A DNA stretch of 41,024 nucleotides from a virus, in the IMG/VR virus record IMGVR_UViG_3300008220_000017, positions 1-41,024 of that record. One strand, given 5' to 3'. Both the position numbers and the translations under genes were made by a program. Positions 5,385-37,306 of the stretch are shown here, piece after piece; positions within the stretch are counted from its first letter, which is position 1; each line of letters begins with the position of its first letter. Below the pieces are notes generated by a model. The model ran no database searches, had not been told where the DNA came from, and saw only the letters and a list, made by a program, of their open reading frames with translations.

Positions 5385-5714
5385 TTAGGCTTCGTTCTGC
5401 ATGGCCTCGATAAGTGCCATCACCTGCCGTTGCTGCGCCTCATTGAGGCGATGGGTCAGGTCGATCACCAGCCCTTCCTTTGAGGGATCATTGCCCAGCA
5501 ATTCCCATGGCTCGCGGTCATAGACATGGGCTAGTGCCTCTATAACGCGCTCGCTATACGGTTGGCGCCCGTTCTCTAGGCGCGAGAGGCTGGCGGCGGT
5601 TGTAGGAAGCTTGGGATCGTCCAGTTCGAGCAAACGCCCGATCACCTGCTCTTGGGATAGCCCCAGGTGCTTCCGCCATTCCTTGAGATAGTGCCGATTT
5701 GCCATGTCGGACAT
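5385..5714 (-). CDS. XRE-family repressor (CI-like, no protease domain)
   Basis: 109-residue DNA-binding protein with an N-terminal helix-turn-helix of the XRE/Cro-CI type (LGLSQEQVIGRLLEL...AASLSRLENGRQPYSE, about residues 17-55) and a short helical C-terminus (LNEAQQRQVMALIEAM). It sits divergent from the Cro-like gene and between two operator pairs, the position of CI in lambda. It lacks the LexA/S24 peptidase domain, so RecA-driven self-cleavage is not expected. The ORF is open to 5813, but that part covers the operators; ATG 5714 (MSDMANRH) or ATG 5705 (MANRH) are the realistic starts. GATAAT lies 7 nt before the 5705 ATG, so a leaderless message is possible. Confidence 0.85.
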   Translation of the reverse strand: MSDMANRHYLKEWRKHLGLSQEQVIGRLLELDDPKLPTTAASLSRLENGRQPYSERVIEALAHVYDREPWELLGNDPSKEGLVIDLTHRLNEAQQRQVMALIEAMQNEA

Positions 5715-5718
5715 TATC

Positions 5719-5733
5719 CTACACCCAGCGTAA
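5719..5733. promoter_or_regulatory. Operator palindrome, right site 1
   Basis: CTACAC-CCA-GCGTAA, 14 of 15 bases identical to the left site at 5335, just upstream of the repressor start. Well placed for autoregulation of the repressor gene. Confidence 0.72.
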
Positions 5734-5750
5734 GCACTCCATGCGCCGGG

Positions 5751-5770
5751 ATGCAAGTTTGGGCTTGCAT
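5751..5770. other. Inverted repeat between the right operators
   Basis: ATGCAAG-TTTGGG-CTTGCAT, perfect 7-bp arms with a 6-nt loop. The right arm supplies the TTGCAT -35 hexamer of the rightward promoter. The left arm read on the minus strand gives another TTGCAT facing the repressor gene, so the element may be a shared divergent promoter core or a third binding site of different sequence. Confidence 0.55.
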
Positions 5771-5793
5771 CGCACTTACGCCCCATGTAAGTA
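5765..5793 (+). promoter_or_regulatory. Rightward early promoter (PR-like)
   Basis: -35 TTGCAT (5765-5770), 17-nt spacer, -10 TAAGTA (5788-5793), with an operator palindrome (5776-5790) covering spacer and -10. Transcription would start about 7 nt past the -10, that is at or next to the A of the ATG at 5800, giving a leaderless message. Confidence 0.65.
5776..5790. promoter_or_regulatory. Operator palindrome, right site 2
   Basis: TTACGC-CCC-ATGTAA, same 15-bp design as the other three sites, overlapping the rightward promoter. Confidence 0.72.
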
Positions 5794-5799
5794 GATGGC

Positions 5800-6003
5800 A
5801 TGGACTTAGACACCTACCTCAAGACCAGCGGCGTGAGCGGTGCGGCGTTTGCCGATCGCATCGGCGTCAGCGCGGCTTCCGTAACCCGCATCCGCAAGGG
5901 TGGGCAAAACATATCGCTTGAGCTGGCCCAGCGCATCGTGACCGCAACTGGTGGCAAGGTGTCGTTGGAAGCGTTGGCGTTGGCCGGAAAGGCCGCAGCA
6001 TGA
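5800..6003 (+). CDS. Cro-like HTH regulator
   Basis: 67-residue protein, first gene of the rightward operon and divergent from the repressor. A helix-turn-helix is visible at about 14-34 (AAFADRIGVSAASVTRIRKG), followed by SLELAQRIVTATGGKVSLEAL, typical of small Cro-type proteins (YdaS-like). There is no Shine-Dalgarno before ATG 5800 and the promoter places the message start there, so initiation is probably leaderless. The stop overlaps the next start as ATGA. Confidence 0.85.
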   Translation: MDLDTYLKTSGVSGAAFADRIGVSAASVTRIRKGGQNISLELAQRIVTATGGKVSLEALALAGKAAA

Positions 6004-6509
6004 ACAAGCGCCGCGTCTATTTTATTAAGCCTGTCGGCATGGACGGACCGATTAAAGTCGGTTGCAGCCATTCGCCTGACGGGCGGCGCAAGACCCTCGA
6101 AACGTGGTCGCCGTTTGCCCTCGAAATTATTGCTGAAATCGAAGGCGGTGAGGACATTGAGCGCCAGTTTCATGCGCTGTTTTACGACACCCATCAGCGA
6201 GGCGAATGGTTCGACGCGTCGGCGAAAATGACTGCCGTTGTTGCAGCCATCAACGGTGGCAGCTTCGACATCGAAGGTCTGCCTCAAGCCCGCCGCCTTC
6301 CGCGCCGCAAGTCGCATCGGACCTACACTCCTGAATGGAGATACGAGTCTAGCTTGAAGGCGCGCTGGCGTCATCGAATCAAGTCTTGGCCGTGGTGGAA
6401 CGAAGAGTTCCGCTCAATCATCGCAGATGGGCAACCTCTTTTGGCGCACAAAGACGCGCTCGAAGACCTGCTGGTTCGCCTTGAAGCCAAAGCGAAAGAA
6501 CCAGCATGA
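6000..6509 (+). CDS. GIY-YIG-like (T5orf172/Mug113-type) protein
   Basis: 169 residues. The N-terminal ~85 residues follow the T5orf172/Mug113 pattern of the GIY-YIG-like group: VYFIKPVGMDGPIKVGCSHS, then RRKTLETWSPFALEIIAEI, then the conserved ERQFHALFYDTHQRGEWFD. The C-terminal half is basic and aromatic. Such domains are predicted nucleases common in phages; an active role cannot be shown here. Joined by ATGA to both neighbours. A second protein of the same type lies at 39810-40244. Confidence 0.75.
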   Translation: MNKRRVYFIKPVGMDGPIKVGCSHSPDGRRKTLETWSPFALEIIAEIEGGEDIERQFHALFYDTHQRGEWFDASAKMTAVVAAINGGSFDIEGLPQARRLPRRKSHRTYTPEWRYESSLKARWRHRIKSWPWWNEEFRSIIADGQPLLAHKDALEDLLVRLEAKAKEPA

Positions 6510-6823
6510 CCTATCCCACACTCACCCGACCGGGCGGCTACCTTTCCGACAACGATCTGACTGACAAGCAGTTCGACCTCGCGACGAAAGCCCGCGCCTA
6601 CCCCCGTATTCTCGCGACCGGCGGCGAAAAGCGAACGGCCGCTTCTCTCGCAAAGAATGGCTGGGGCACCGTCGAAGATGGGGCGAGCGGAGAGCGCATC
6701 TTCCGCCTCAATCAGGATGGCGAGGACGCCCTCTGCTGGCTCGATGAATTGGCGGACGATCAACATACGCCTCTCTGCTCATGTCTTGCCTGCGAACACC
6801 CGCTTCGCCCCGGTGCCGCATGA
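6506..6823 (+). CDS. Hypothetical protein with C-terminal Cys cluster (105 aa)
   Basis: Not recognised. 105 residues; the middle (GEKRTAASLAKNGWGTVEDG...RIFRLNQDGEDALCWLDEL) reads like a winged-helix or small beta-alpha fold, and the C-terminus has the Cys cluster CSCLACEH that could hold a metal with other residues. ATGA junctions on both sides. Confidence 0.7.
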   Translation: MTYPTLTRPGGYLSDNDLTDKQFDLATKARAYPRILATGGEKRTAASLAKNGWGTVEDGASGERIFRLNQDGEDALCWLDELADDQHTPLCSCLACEHPLRPGAA

Positions 6824-6909
6824 GCGCTCTGATCGACCTCTTCGCCTTCGGGCTGATGTTCGCGACTGCTGCTGGCGGTCTCTACGCGGCGTTCGTGAGG
6901 CGCGGATAG
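6820..6909 (+). CDS. 29-aa membrane peptide
   Basis: ATG 6820 overlaps the upstream TGA as ATGA; the stop TAG abuts the next ATG. The product MSALIDLFAFGLMFATAAGG, then LYAAFVRRG, is one membrane segment with a basic C-terminus. Exact packing between neighbours supports translation; function unknown. Confidence 0.55.
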   Translation: MSALIDLFAFGLMFATAAGGLYAAFVRRG

Positions 6910-34589: not shown

Positions 34590-35000
34590 ATGGACCTCCT
34601 GTCTGCCATAGCCGTATCCCTTCGCGTCTCAATCATCATCATCGCGGGCGCGATGGTGGTGGGGCTTTGGCGGGAAAATTGGGCGGTTGTGACGCGCAAG
34701 CCGGGGTGGCGCGTCCATCTTACTTCCACGATCTTTACCGTAATGGTGGTGGCCGGCGCGATCATTTCGAGCGTCAACGTCTTTCCCGATGCGGGCTGGT
34801 CTATCCCTCGCAATGTGCGCCTTGGTGTGGTCAATTTTGGCCTGTCTCTATTCCTGGTCGGAACGCTGACCGGGCTTTATCGCCGCGCCCTTCGCTCCGG
34901 TCCTGAACAAGCCCGCGCCGCCTTTTTGACAGGCATCGCGATAGTCGCCGTGGGGTGCGCGTTTGTCGCCCTGCTTCATGCGGCCGGGAATCATGCGTGA
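34590..35000 (+). CDS. Membrane protein of lysis cassette (holin-type, 136 aa)
   Basis: 136 residues with four likely membrane segments (VSIIIIAGAMVVGLW; STIFTVMVVAGAIISSV; LGVVNFGLSLFLVGTLTGLY; AFLTGIAIVAVGCAFVALL). GGGGAGG lies before ATG 34590. Placed directly before a second membrane protein and the endolysin; holin or antiholin are the natural roles, not distinguishable here. Confidence 0.7.
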   Translation: MDLLSAIAVSLRVSIIIIAGAMVVGLWRENWAVVTRKPGWRVHLTSTIFTVMVVAGAIISSVNVFPDAGWSIPRNVRLGVVNFGLSLFLVGTLTGLYRRALRSGPEQARAAFLTGIAIVAVGCAFVALLHAAGNHA

Positions 35001-35437
35001 ACCTGCTGCGAGAAATCCCTGCCAAGTGGTGGGCGGTGCTGCTGGGGGTCTTGTTCGGCTCCCTCGCACTGATCGCCATGGATGGGCCAAAGAAGGGCTA
35101 CGGCAGGACAATCGTTACAGCGTGTCTGACCGCGCCGCTCTTGTCGGTGCTGGCCGGGGCAATGCTGCCGTCTGACACCTCACTGGAAATAGCCGCGCTG
35201 ATCGGGGGCGTGACCACTCTAGGCGGTATGGCGGTGATCGTGGCGGTGTCTCGCCTTGCCCCCTCGCTGGTGACGGCAGGGCTTACAGGTATCGCCCGGA
35301 CCTATCTCGAAATCAATCCGAGCGAACCGGGGAAGCCCGGCGAAGTGACGCGCAGGCGTGAGGACGGAACGCCGGAAAACCCGGAACCTACGCTGGATGA
35401 ACTGGCGCGCAGGTTCGACGAAAGGAAAGACCAATGA
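34997..35437 (+). CDS. Holin-like membrane protein (146 aa)
   Basis: 146 residues from GTG 34997 (GTGA overlap). Three likely membrane segments (WWAVLLGVLFGSLALIAM; TACLTAPLLSVLAGAML; LIGGVTTLGGMAVIVAVS) and a charged cytoplasmic tail (GKPGEVTRRREDGTPENPEP, DELARRFDERKDQ), the shape of phage holins. Immediately upstream of the endolysin with an ATGA junction, hence the preferred holin candidate. Confidence 0.75.
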   Translation: MNLLREIPAKWWAVLLGVLFGSLALIAMDGPKKGYGRTIVTACLTAPLLSVLAGAMLPSDTSLEIAALIGGVTTLGGMAVIVAVSRLAPSLVTAGLTGIARTYLEINPSEPGKPGEVTRRREDGTPENPEPTLDELARRFDERKDQ

Positions 35438-36045
35438 AGCTTGATCGCGAGCCGATCTTTGACGCTGTGCGCGTCATGTTGAAGCGCGGCTTCACCACCA
35501 CTGAGGTTAAGGCACTGGACGCTGCGATAGACGAGGCGACCGGCACCATCGTTGTGACCGCGCCGCAAGAGGATTGGATCAAGCTGGCTGCGCCGCTGGT
35601 CGAACGGTTCGAAGGCATGGCGCGTAAAGTCCCCGGTGGCGTGCAGGCCTATCCCGATCCTGGCACTGGCGGCAAGCCTTGGACGATTGGCGTAGGGTCA
35701 ACCACAGACGAGAATGGCGACCCGATCAAACCGGGTGACGTTTGGCCGCTGGCTCGCGCCCGCGCTCGTTTCGAAGCTCACTTGGCCGAGTTCGGCGAGG
35801 GAGTGGACAAACTGCTTGCCGGGAAGCCCGCTACAGCGCCCCAGAAAGCCGCGATGACAAGTCTGGCGTATAATATCGGCTTGTCGGCTCTTGCGCGCTC
35901 TACCGTGCTTAGATTGCACCGTGCGGGCGATTATGCCGGTGCGGCCAAGGCCTTTGCCATGTGGGTCAAAGCCGGGGGAAAGACTCTACCGGGCCTAGTT
36001 CGACGAAGAGCCGCTGAGGCGACGCTTTACGGGAGGGGTAGCTAA
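35434..36045 (+). CDS. GH24 endolysin (lysozyme) with replaced C-terminus
   Basis: 203 residues. An N-terminal helical extension (1-50) precedes the lysozyme domain: catalytic Glu in RFEG (Glu60), AYPDP (Asp75) and WTIGVGST (Thr84), then KAAMTSLAYNIGLSAL and the C-terminal AGGKTLPGLVRRRAAEATLY. It cleaves glycan strands of peptidoglycan. No signal peptide, so release by a holin. The last ~17 codons overlap an antisense nuclease gene, and a second version of the C-terminal end lies at 36616-36690. AAAGGAAAG before ATG 35434. Confidence 0.92.
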   Translation: MKLDREPIFDAVRVMLKRGFTTTEVKALDAAIDEATGTIVVTAPQEDWIKLAAPLVERFEGMARKVPGGVQAYPDPGTGGKPWTIGVGSTTDENGDPIKPGDVWPLARARARFEAHLAEFGEGVDKLLAGKPATAPQKAAMTSLAYNIGLSALARSTVLRLHRAGDYAGAAKAFAMWVKAGGKTLPGLVRRRAAEATLYGRGS

Positions 36046-36576
36046 ATGCTCGTCTGTCCAGCCTTGCGCAATCCTGTATCTCAACGTGGTCGCCTCTATT
36101 CCCAACATGCGCGACAAATCGGCCAACCTCATCTCTTTGCCGAGGTAAGTCACAATACGCTTGCGCGAGATATGTGCAGATTGTTCAAGCGGGGACGCCC
36201 AACGGCAATTGCTCGGCTCATAGGCTCCAGTGCTGTCGATACGATCCAAAGTTTTACCTGCTGGGCGTTCGCCCATATCCGCCAAAAAGTTAGCAAACTC
36301 TTGCCATCTGGCACACACGGAAATGCCTTTAGCTCCGTAATCCGGGAAGCGACTTGCCCGAGGGTTTTGGCAGCGTTGCTTCATCATTGCCCATGTCGTG
36401 TAGGTGCGACTCAAGGCCGTATGGGTCGTATGCCCATGTTTGCGGGAATTTGCGCTAGCCGAACAGGAGCGCGAACAGAATCGCCCCCTTCCATTCATCA
36501 AACGCCGCTGTGTGGTTTCGAACGTCTCGCCGCAGACAGAACAACGCTGGCTAATTCTCGGGACCTTTTTCGACAT
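35995..36576 (-). CDS. Putative phage homing endonuclease, antisense in endolysin
   Basis: 193 residues from ATG 36576 (MSKKVPRISQ) behind GGTGGGG; the ORF is open to 36615. N-terminal zinc-type module (CSVCGETF...GRGRFCSRSCSASA), then a conserved block seen in mobile phage nucleases: RTYTTWAMMKQRCQNP, DYGAKGISVCARWQEFANFL, DMGERPAGKTLDRIDSTGAY, EPSNCRWA; then a C-terminal helix-turn-helix (LADLSRMLGIEATTLRYRI). Homing function is from family context. It lies inside the endolysin gene on the other strand and is more AT-rich than neighbours. Confidence 0.85.
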   Translation of the reverse strand: MSKKVPRISQRCSVCGETFETTQRRLMNGRGRFCSRSCSASANSRKHGHTTHTALSRTYTTWAMMKQRCQNPRASRFPDYGAKGISVCARWQEFANFLADMGERPAGKTLDRIDSTGAYEPSNCRWASPLEQSAHISRKRIVTYLGKEMRLADLSRMLGIEATTLRYRIAQGWTDEHLATPPVKRRLSGSSSN

Positions 36577-36615
36577 GCCCCACCAATAGTGCACATGTAT
36601 CGGGTTTGCAATCAA

Positions 36616-36690
36616 ATTAAAGCTGGCGGCAAGGTGATGGCCGGATTGATCCGCCGCCGCGCTGCCGAAGCGGAGTTGTACCGATCATGA
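36616..36690 (+). pseudogene. Displaced original 3' end of the endolysin gene
   Basis: An open stretch codes IKAGGKVMAGLIRRRAAEAE then LYRS and TGA. It matches the endolysin C-terminus (16 of 21 identical from KAGGK). Its TGA overlaps the start of the next gene as ATGA, the junction style of the intact operon, so this is the original end and the copy at 35968-36045 is the newcomer. It has no start of its own. Confidence 0.85.
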
Positions 36691-36944
36691 CCTTCCCGCG
36701 CATCAGCAACCACGGAAGCGAAGTCTTTCTGCTCGGCGTGATGGCCCTTGGGGTCATTATCCTCATCGGAATTGCGATCGGCAAGGGCAAGGTGGACGGG
36801 CTGGACATAGCCGCTTTCCTGCTCGTTCTACAGCGTATTGTGGAGGCCGTTCAAAAGCGGTGGGAACAGCGATCTGTAGATCAAATGGGCCGCAGTCTCG
36901 CCAATGCTCCGCAAGCCACACCCCCAACAACGGATGAAGCATGA
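36687..36944 (+). CDS. Small membrane protein after endolysin (85 aa)
   Basis: 85 residues with one clear membrane segment (LLGVMALGVIILIGIAIG) and a second hydrophobic helix (LDIAAFLLVLQRIVEAV), then a polar tail. Its ATG overlaps the TGA of the displaced endolysin end; translational coupling to the endolysin is now broken by the nuclease insertion. Lysis role is inferred from place only. Confidence 0.75.
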   Translation: MTFPRISNHGSEVFLLGVMALGVIILIGIAIGKGKVDGLDIAAFLLVLQRIVEAVQKRWEQRSVDQMGRSLANAPQATPPTTDEA

Positions 36945-37306
36945 TGTTCGGACAATTCTTCGCGCCCGTATGGGTCAGGATAGCCGCTGCCGTGTTCGGG
37001 CTGCTCCTTGTCGCGCTGGCGGTCCAGTCGTGGCGGCTAGGCGCTGCAAACGAGCGGGTGGAAGAGACGCGCAACGCCCTCGCTGCCGAACGCGCCCAGC
37101 ATGACGTTACGCGCGCTTCACTGGACGAGCTGACCTTTGAGATGACCCGCCTTGTCCAAGAGGGTGAGGTTCGAGCCGAGCGGGTGAACGAAGCCATGGC
37201 GCGGGTTGCTGACGAAACAGCGGCAATGAAGGAGCGCGCTCAGATTATCGAGCGCGATGGTCTGGGTGAGGACTATGTGAGCGATCTACGGGAGGCGGGG
37301 ATATGA
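36941..37306 (+). CDS. i-spanin (Rz-like)
   Basis: 121 residues: one N-terminal membrane anchor (VWVRIAAAVFGLLLVALAV) followed by a long coiled coil (residues 35-105, RVEETRNALAAERAQHDVTR...). This is the Rz-type inner membrane spanin that, with the lipoprotein coded next, fuses inner and outer membranes at the end of lysis. ATGA junctions both sides. Confidence 0.82.
   Translation: MMFGQFFAPVWVRIAAAVFGLLLVALAVQSWRLGAANERVEETRNALAAERAQHDVTRASLDELTFEMTRLVQEGEVRAERVNEAMARVADETAAMKERAQIIERDGLGEDYVSDLREAGI

Follow-up and report, generated by a model that had tools for sequence, protein, structure and literature searches.

In the virus record IMGVR_UViG_3300008220_000017, an HNH endonuclease gene lies at the 3' end of the essential endolysin gene and appears to have brought a working replacement for the last stretch of that gene, leaving the original end stranded beyond it. 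The same arrangement was found in at least three other bacterial viruses. The element most probably represents a homing element of the 3'-end-replacing type, consisting of a nuclease gene plus a divergent copy of the end of the target gene, although cleavage and homing are inferred and not demonstrated. The sequence analysed, referred to below as the window, is the complete record of 41,024 bases from IMG/VR.

The endolysin gene (35434-36045, plus strand) contains a body of the phage lysozyme GH24-type (35434-35967), which matches Pfam Phage_lysozyme at 4e-31 and PHROG 7 (endolysin) at 1.5e-43, and a divergent 25-codon tail (35968-36045) ending in KAGGKTLPGLVRRRAAEATLYGRGS and a stop codon. 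On the minus strand an open reading frame (35995-36615, extending to a TTG at 36615, with a probable ATG start at 36576) matches PHROG 3377 and PHROG 374, both HNH endonucleases, at 3e-50 and 2e-41, respectively. The 3' coding end of the nuclease overlaps the endolysin tail by 51 bp (35995-36045). Beyond the nuclease a second, native-type lysozyme end (36616-36690, plus strand) is still open, with KAGGKVMAGLIRRRAAEAELYRS and its stop codon coded at 36619-36690, 651 bp downstream of the first end and in the same frame. Its TGA (36688-36690) overlaps the ATG (36687) of the next gene of the lysis cassette (36687-36944, plus strand), encoding a predicted membrane protein of 85 residues, as ATGA. 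The two ends share 16 of 21 residues, 12 of which use a different codon, with a nucleotide identity of 59%. Their local alignment score of 85 is far above that of shuffled sequences (mean 41, sd 4.4, maximum 57), and no other place in the six frames of the window matches the end at more than 10 of 21 residues. The lysozyme tail is, however, a conserved motif, with a mean of 13.4 of 21 identities among 98 family ends, and hence these are two lysozyme tails, but not necessarily a recent duplicate of one another. An assembly chimera or tandem duplication artefact, as might be suspected from two related ends in direct orientation within 0.7 kb, is very unlikely in view of the low nucleotide identity, the absence of a direct DNA repeat, the recurrence of the architecture in other phages and the presence of three other IMG/VR contigs that are identical over 7.7-8.1 kb through the region.

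The original prediction, that the endolysin gene has two 3' ends with an antisense nuclease gene between them, is thus confirmed. Its interpretation, that a gene-end-replacing homing element other than an intron or intein inserted into the endolysin and brought a substitute C-terminus, is supported in its essentials. The frame following the endolysin stop is open for 214 codons from an ATG at 36046, through the antisense of the nuclease, to the displaced end and the ATGA junction (36046-36690). It could keep translation coupled to the next gene, and it might in principle represent a separate expressed gene. The latter is very improbable, since most of the frame is the exact antisense of the nuclease, where an open frame has a probability of about 0.24 from phage codon use. 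Moreover, outside its last 24 residues it has no lysozyme similarity, and relatives carry that end on a lysozyme.

Related phages reveal which of the two ends is native. Homologues of the next gene follow lysin genes in the related loci L025-L027, L194 and L200-L208; in L025 a TnpB/OrfB-like ORF (5649-6872) lies shortly after the lysis cassette. In two of these phages, L202 and L206, a lysozyme of the same family leads directly into the homologous next gene without a nuclease, ending in GLTRRRAAEAKVYRS (junction TCATGA) and GLIRRRAAEAELYAGRV (junction ATGA), respectively. The downstream end of the window therefore stands where the ancestral end stood. Its nearest real lysin end is that of L206 (17 of 21 residues), and its codon use is typical of the phage, whereas the upstream tail is less typical than every one of 753 windows of the same length. 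The codon argument, which was also part of the original prediction, is confounded here, because 51 bp of the substitute tail is also nuclease coding sequence. The empty relatives are only 41-46% identical to the present endolysin and show the architecture, not a recent event. The present endolysin body joined directly to the downstream end was not found; searches of phages and plasmids for a close empty allele gave only endolysins below 60% identity, and a search of sphingomonad genomes with the next gene gave few hits, with other lysins. Two cyanobacterial loci with two lysozyme ends (L159 and L178) contain complete lysozyme genes in tandem.

The nuclease is predicted to consist of an N-terminal zinc-finger-like part, an HNH core and a C-terminal helix-turn-helix, based on conserved columns and a structural model with a pLDDT of 90. 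Residues R112, Y119 and N123 of the core are conserved in 39 sequences. A structural similarity search against the PDB gave no significant match; the top, but insignificant, hit is PacI, an HNH enzyme. The two phylogenetically closest nucleases found are those of L226 (49% identity), from a scan of viral contigs, and L115 (46% identity), from a Novosphingobium prophage found through the lysozyme search. Both also lie antisense on the 3' end of a lysozyme gene, which they overlap by 16 and 4 bp, respectively, and together with the nuclease of the window they form one clade among 45 nucleases with a support of 97/89, although the bootstrap had not fully settled. No displaced end is visible in either L226 or L115, and the remnant is thus not a constant feature. 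Apart from this clade, only one nuclease locus (L271, with a gap of 177 bp) lies near a lysozyme of this family among the loci examined.

To find out whether the architecture recurs, the gene ends on either side of each nuclease were compared in a stop-anchored scan of 192 distinct related HNH loci, calibrated on shuffled flanks. Four clear cases were obtained, with scores of 59-86, while shuffled flanks gave one hit, at 44. Besides the window (score 85), these are L027, L286 and L252, in which the host genes are unrelated. In L027 (score 59) a GH19-type lysin ends in IGLEHVNKLRQRLLTVLR, the nuclease follows on the same strand, and IGLAHVNALRVKLLEVLR then leads with a GTGA junction into a homologue of the same next gene; L026 is an empty relative. 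In L286 (score 79) a homologue of phiKZ gene 042 ends in DKESYYRHIKLTSSGV, and DKESFYRHIKLTSSGV follows the nuclease, beginning within the last codons of the nuclease gene. In L252 (score 86) the host is a phage metallopeptidase-like gene (PHROG 1314; annotated as putative metallopeptidase domain protein in Pseudomonas phage inbricus), the displaced end of which keeps an ATGA junction; here the nuclease has no clear ATG start. Only about 2% of the related nuclease loci show the architecture, but since the window was the starting point and L027 was met through its next gene, with only L286 and L252 originating from the nuclease-based search, four of 192 is not an unbiased frequency. A possible fifth case is L385, where a NinB gene (413-808) and an HNH nuclease (820-1458) are followed by SKKEFSDYLEFLNATAVLRGVNL, which starts at the nuclease stop and ends in an ATGA junction (the locus spanning 413-1525); its score of 42 is, however, within reach of chance. 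Of the remaining hits, L343, L329, L242 and L323 are tandem nucleases, L340 is a self-overlap, and L396, L366, L257 and L365 were judged to be chance. The tandem HNH genes of L242, L329, L343 and L252 (2468-2929) are reminiscent of the clusters that repeated homing builds at the WHO locus of yeasts. No convincing N-terminal duplications were observed, and none of 14 nuclease genes examined in records of the phage collection (L313-L317 and L399-L406) shows the architecture.

The protein sequence of the ends is kept while the DNA has changed. In L286 15 of 16 residues agree, but 12 of those 15 use different codons, and in L027 13 of 18 residues agree, of which 12 are recoded. In contrast, the displaced end of L027 differs from the empty relative L026 in only 5 of 15 shared residues (Fisher p 0.002 against 12 of 13). 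The tail of L027 is also below all 373 codon-use windows of its own phage, and there the nuclease does not overlap it, whereas the tails of L286 and L252 are not codon-atypical. The pattern fits a tail that has been kept functional while its DNA has moved away from the target of the nuclease, but a tail imported from a divergent phage would look the same. In the structural model of the window's endolysin the substitute tail forms a confident final helix (residues 186-200), so that a body without it would lack the end of the lysozyme domain.

Passive mosaicism offers an alternative, in which a block of lysozyme end plus nuclease from another phage recombined into the lysozyme gene by ordinary homologous or illegitimate recombination, with the nuclease as a passenger. 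Phage lysis cassettes are mosaic, and in these sphingomonad-type phages the lysin type itself changes (lysozyme, GH19-like, amidase-like and others) in front of the same short membrane-protein gene, as seen in the window (34955-37306) and in L025, L026, L027, L194 and L200-L208. In addition, HNH genes are often found at recombination boundaries (PMC10448857), and L226 and L115 lack a remnant end. This alternative is nevertheless considered unlikely, as the recurrence at 3' ends of unrelated genes with different nuclease lineages, each beside an HNH gene, and the clade of nucleases at lysozyme ends point to the nuclease as the agent, albeit without a control scan of nuclease-free gene pairs. 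Other types of mobile element are not supported. No group I intron or other RNA family reaches threshold in Rfam searches, an intein is excluded by the antisense frame of the nuclease and the stop codon that ends the endolysin before the insert, and no direct repeats, or inverted repeats at the ends of the element, as in an insertion sequence or transposon, were found.

By analogy with the WHO elements, the following cycle is proposed. In a mixed infection or a superinfected lysogen the HNH nuclease would cut or nick the conserved end of an empty lysozyme gene, after which repair would copy the nuclease gene together with its divergent lysozyme tail, using lysozyme body sequence on one side and the stranded native end on the other as homology. 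The recipient obtains a hybrid endolysin with an intact final helix, which the nuclease presumably no longer recognises because the DNA of the tail differs. The old end is pushed beyond the nuclease, where it keeps the ATGA junction with the next gene. The hybrid gene and the position of the old end are evident from the sequence, as is the overlap that physically ties the selfish gene to the rescue sequence, whereas cleavage, repair and resistance are inferred. It is somewhat more likely than not that gene-end-replacing homing is a general strategy that arose repeatedly among phage HNH nucleases, as a third way, besides introns and inteins, to parasitise an essential phage gene without breaking it; in the lysozyme lineage cutter and cure could then not easily be separated, because the nuclease gene overlaps the rescue tail.

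Phage homing endonucleases are usually thought to be tolerated because they sit between genes or inside introns and inteins. The element described here points to another solution, in which the essential gene itself is cut and a divergent working end is carried along, which would explain mosaic 3' ends of phage genes and stranded gene ends next to HNH genes. The free-standing homing endonucleases of phages, such as those encoded by the T4 mob and seg genes (PMC2988022), are likewise phage-borne and not located in an intron; the mob enzymes are HNH with a separate DNA-binding part, and the genes often overlap their neighbours by a few to 24 bp. They are, however, described as intergenic and protected by divergence of the neighbouring target, and no stranded host-gene end or substitute tail is mentioned in that review. 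Full-text searches of open-access papers, which did not cover subscription journals and preprints, found no description of the present architecture in phages, and the consulted passages of a review and two surveys of phage homing nucleases do not mention it.

In the papers found, the class is described from yeast nuclei and fungal mitochondria. The WHO elements of Torulaspora and Lachancea yeasts home into FBA1 and replace its 3' end (PMC7282813). As in the window, an endonuclease gene lies beside an intact essential host gene whose 3' end is a divergent allele, a fragment of the old 3' end is found beyond the endonuclease gene, and no splicing is needed; the endonuclease can be in either orientation. 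Empty alleles with the native end also exist here, i.e., L202 and L206 for the window and L026 for L027, though only at the level of distant relatives. The model published for the WHO elements fits point by point, and as far as sequence can tell the element works like that structural class. It does not belong to the WHO protein family, since WHO proteins are LAGLIDADG enzymes, intein-derived with a zinc finger, in nuclear genomes, whereas here the enzyme matches HNH families, the hosts are phage genes and the tails are short (16-27 codons). Fungal mitochondrial mobile ORFs carrying a C-terminus (Allomyces atp6; Glomus atp6, atp9, cox2 and nad3; PMC3630166) show the same structure, with an inserted C-terminus in use, a mobile endonuclease ORF, the native C-terminus stranded downstream and a protein identity higher than the DNA identity, and RNA evidence indicates that the substitute end is the one joined to the host transcript. 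These mobile ORFs encode LAGLIDADG or GIY-YIG enzymes and are often in frame on the host strand, whereas the present enzyme is HNH and, in the lysozyme lineage, is encoded antisense with overlapping 3' ends. Finally, the logic of cutting an essential gene and rescuing it with a divergent working copy linked to the cutter is shared with recoded home-and-rescue gene drives (e.g. PMC7968924), which are engineered Cas9 systems in insects, while the present element would be a natural counterpart in viruses of bacteria.
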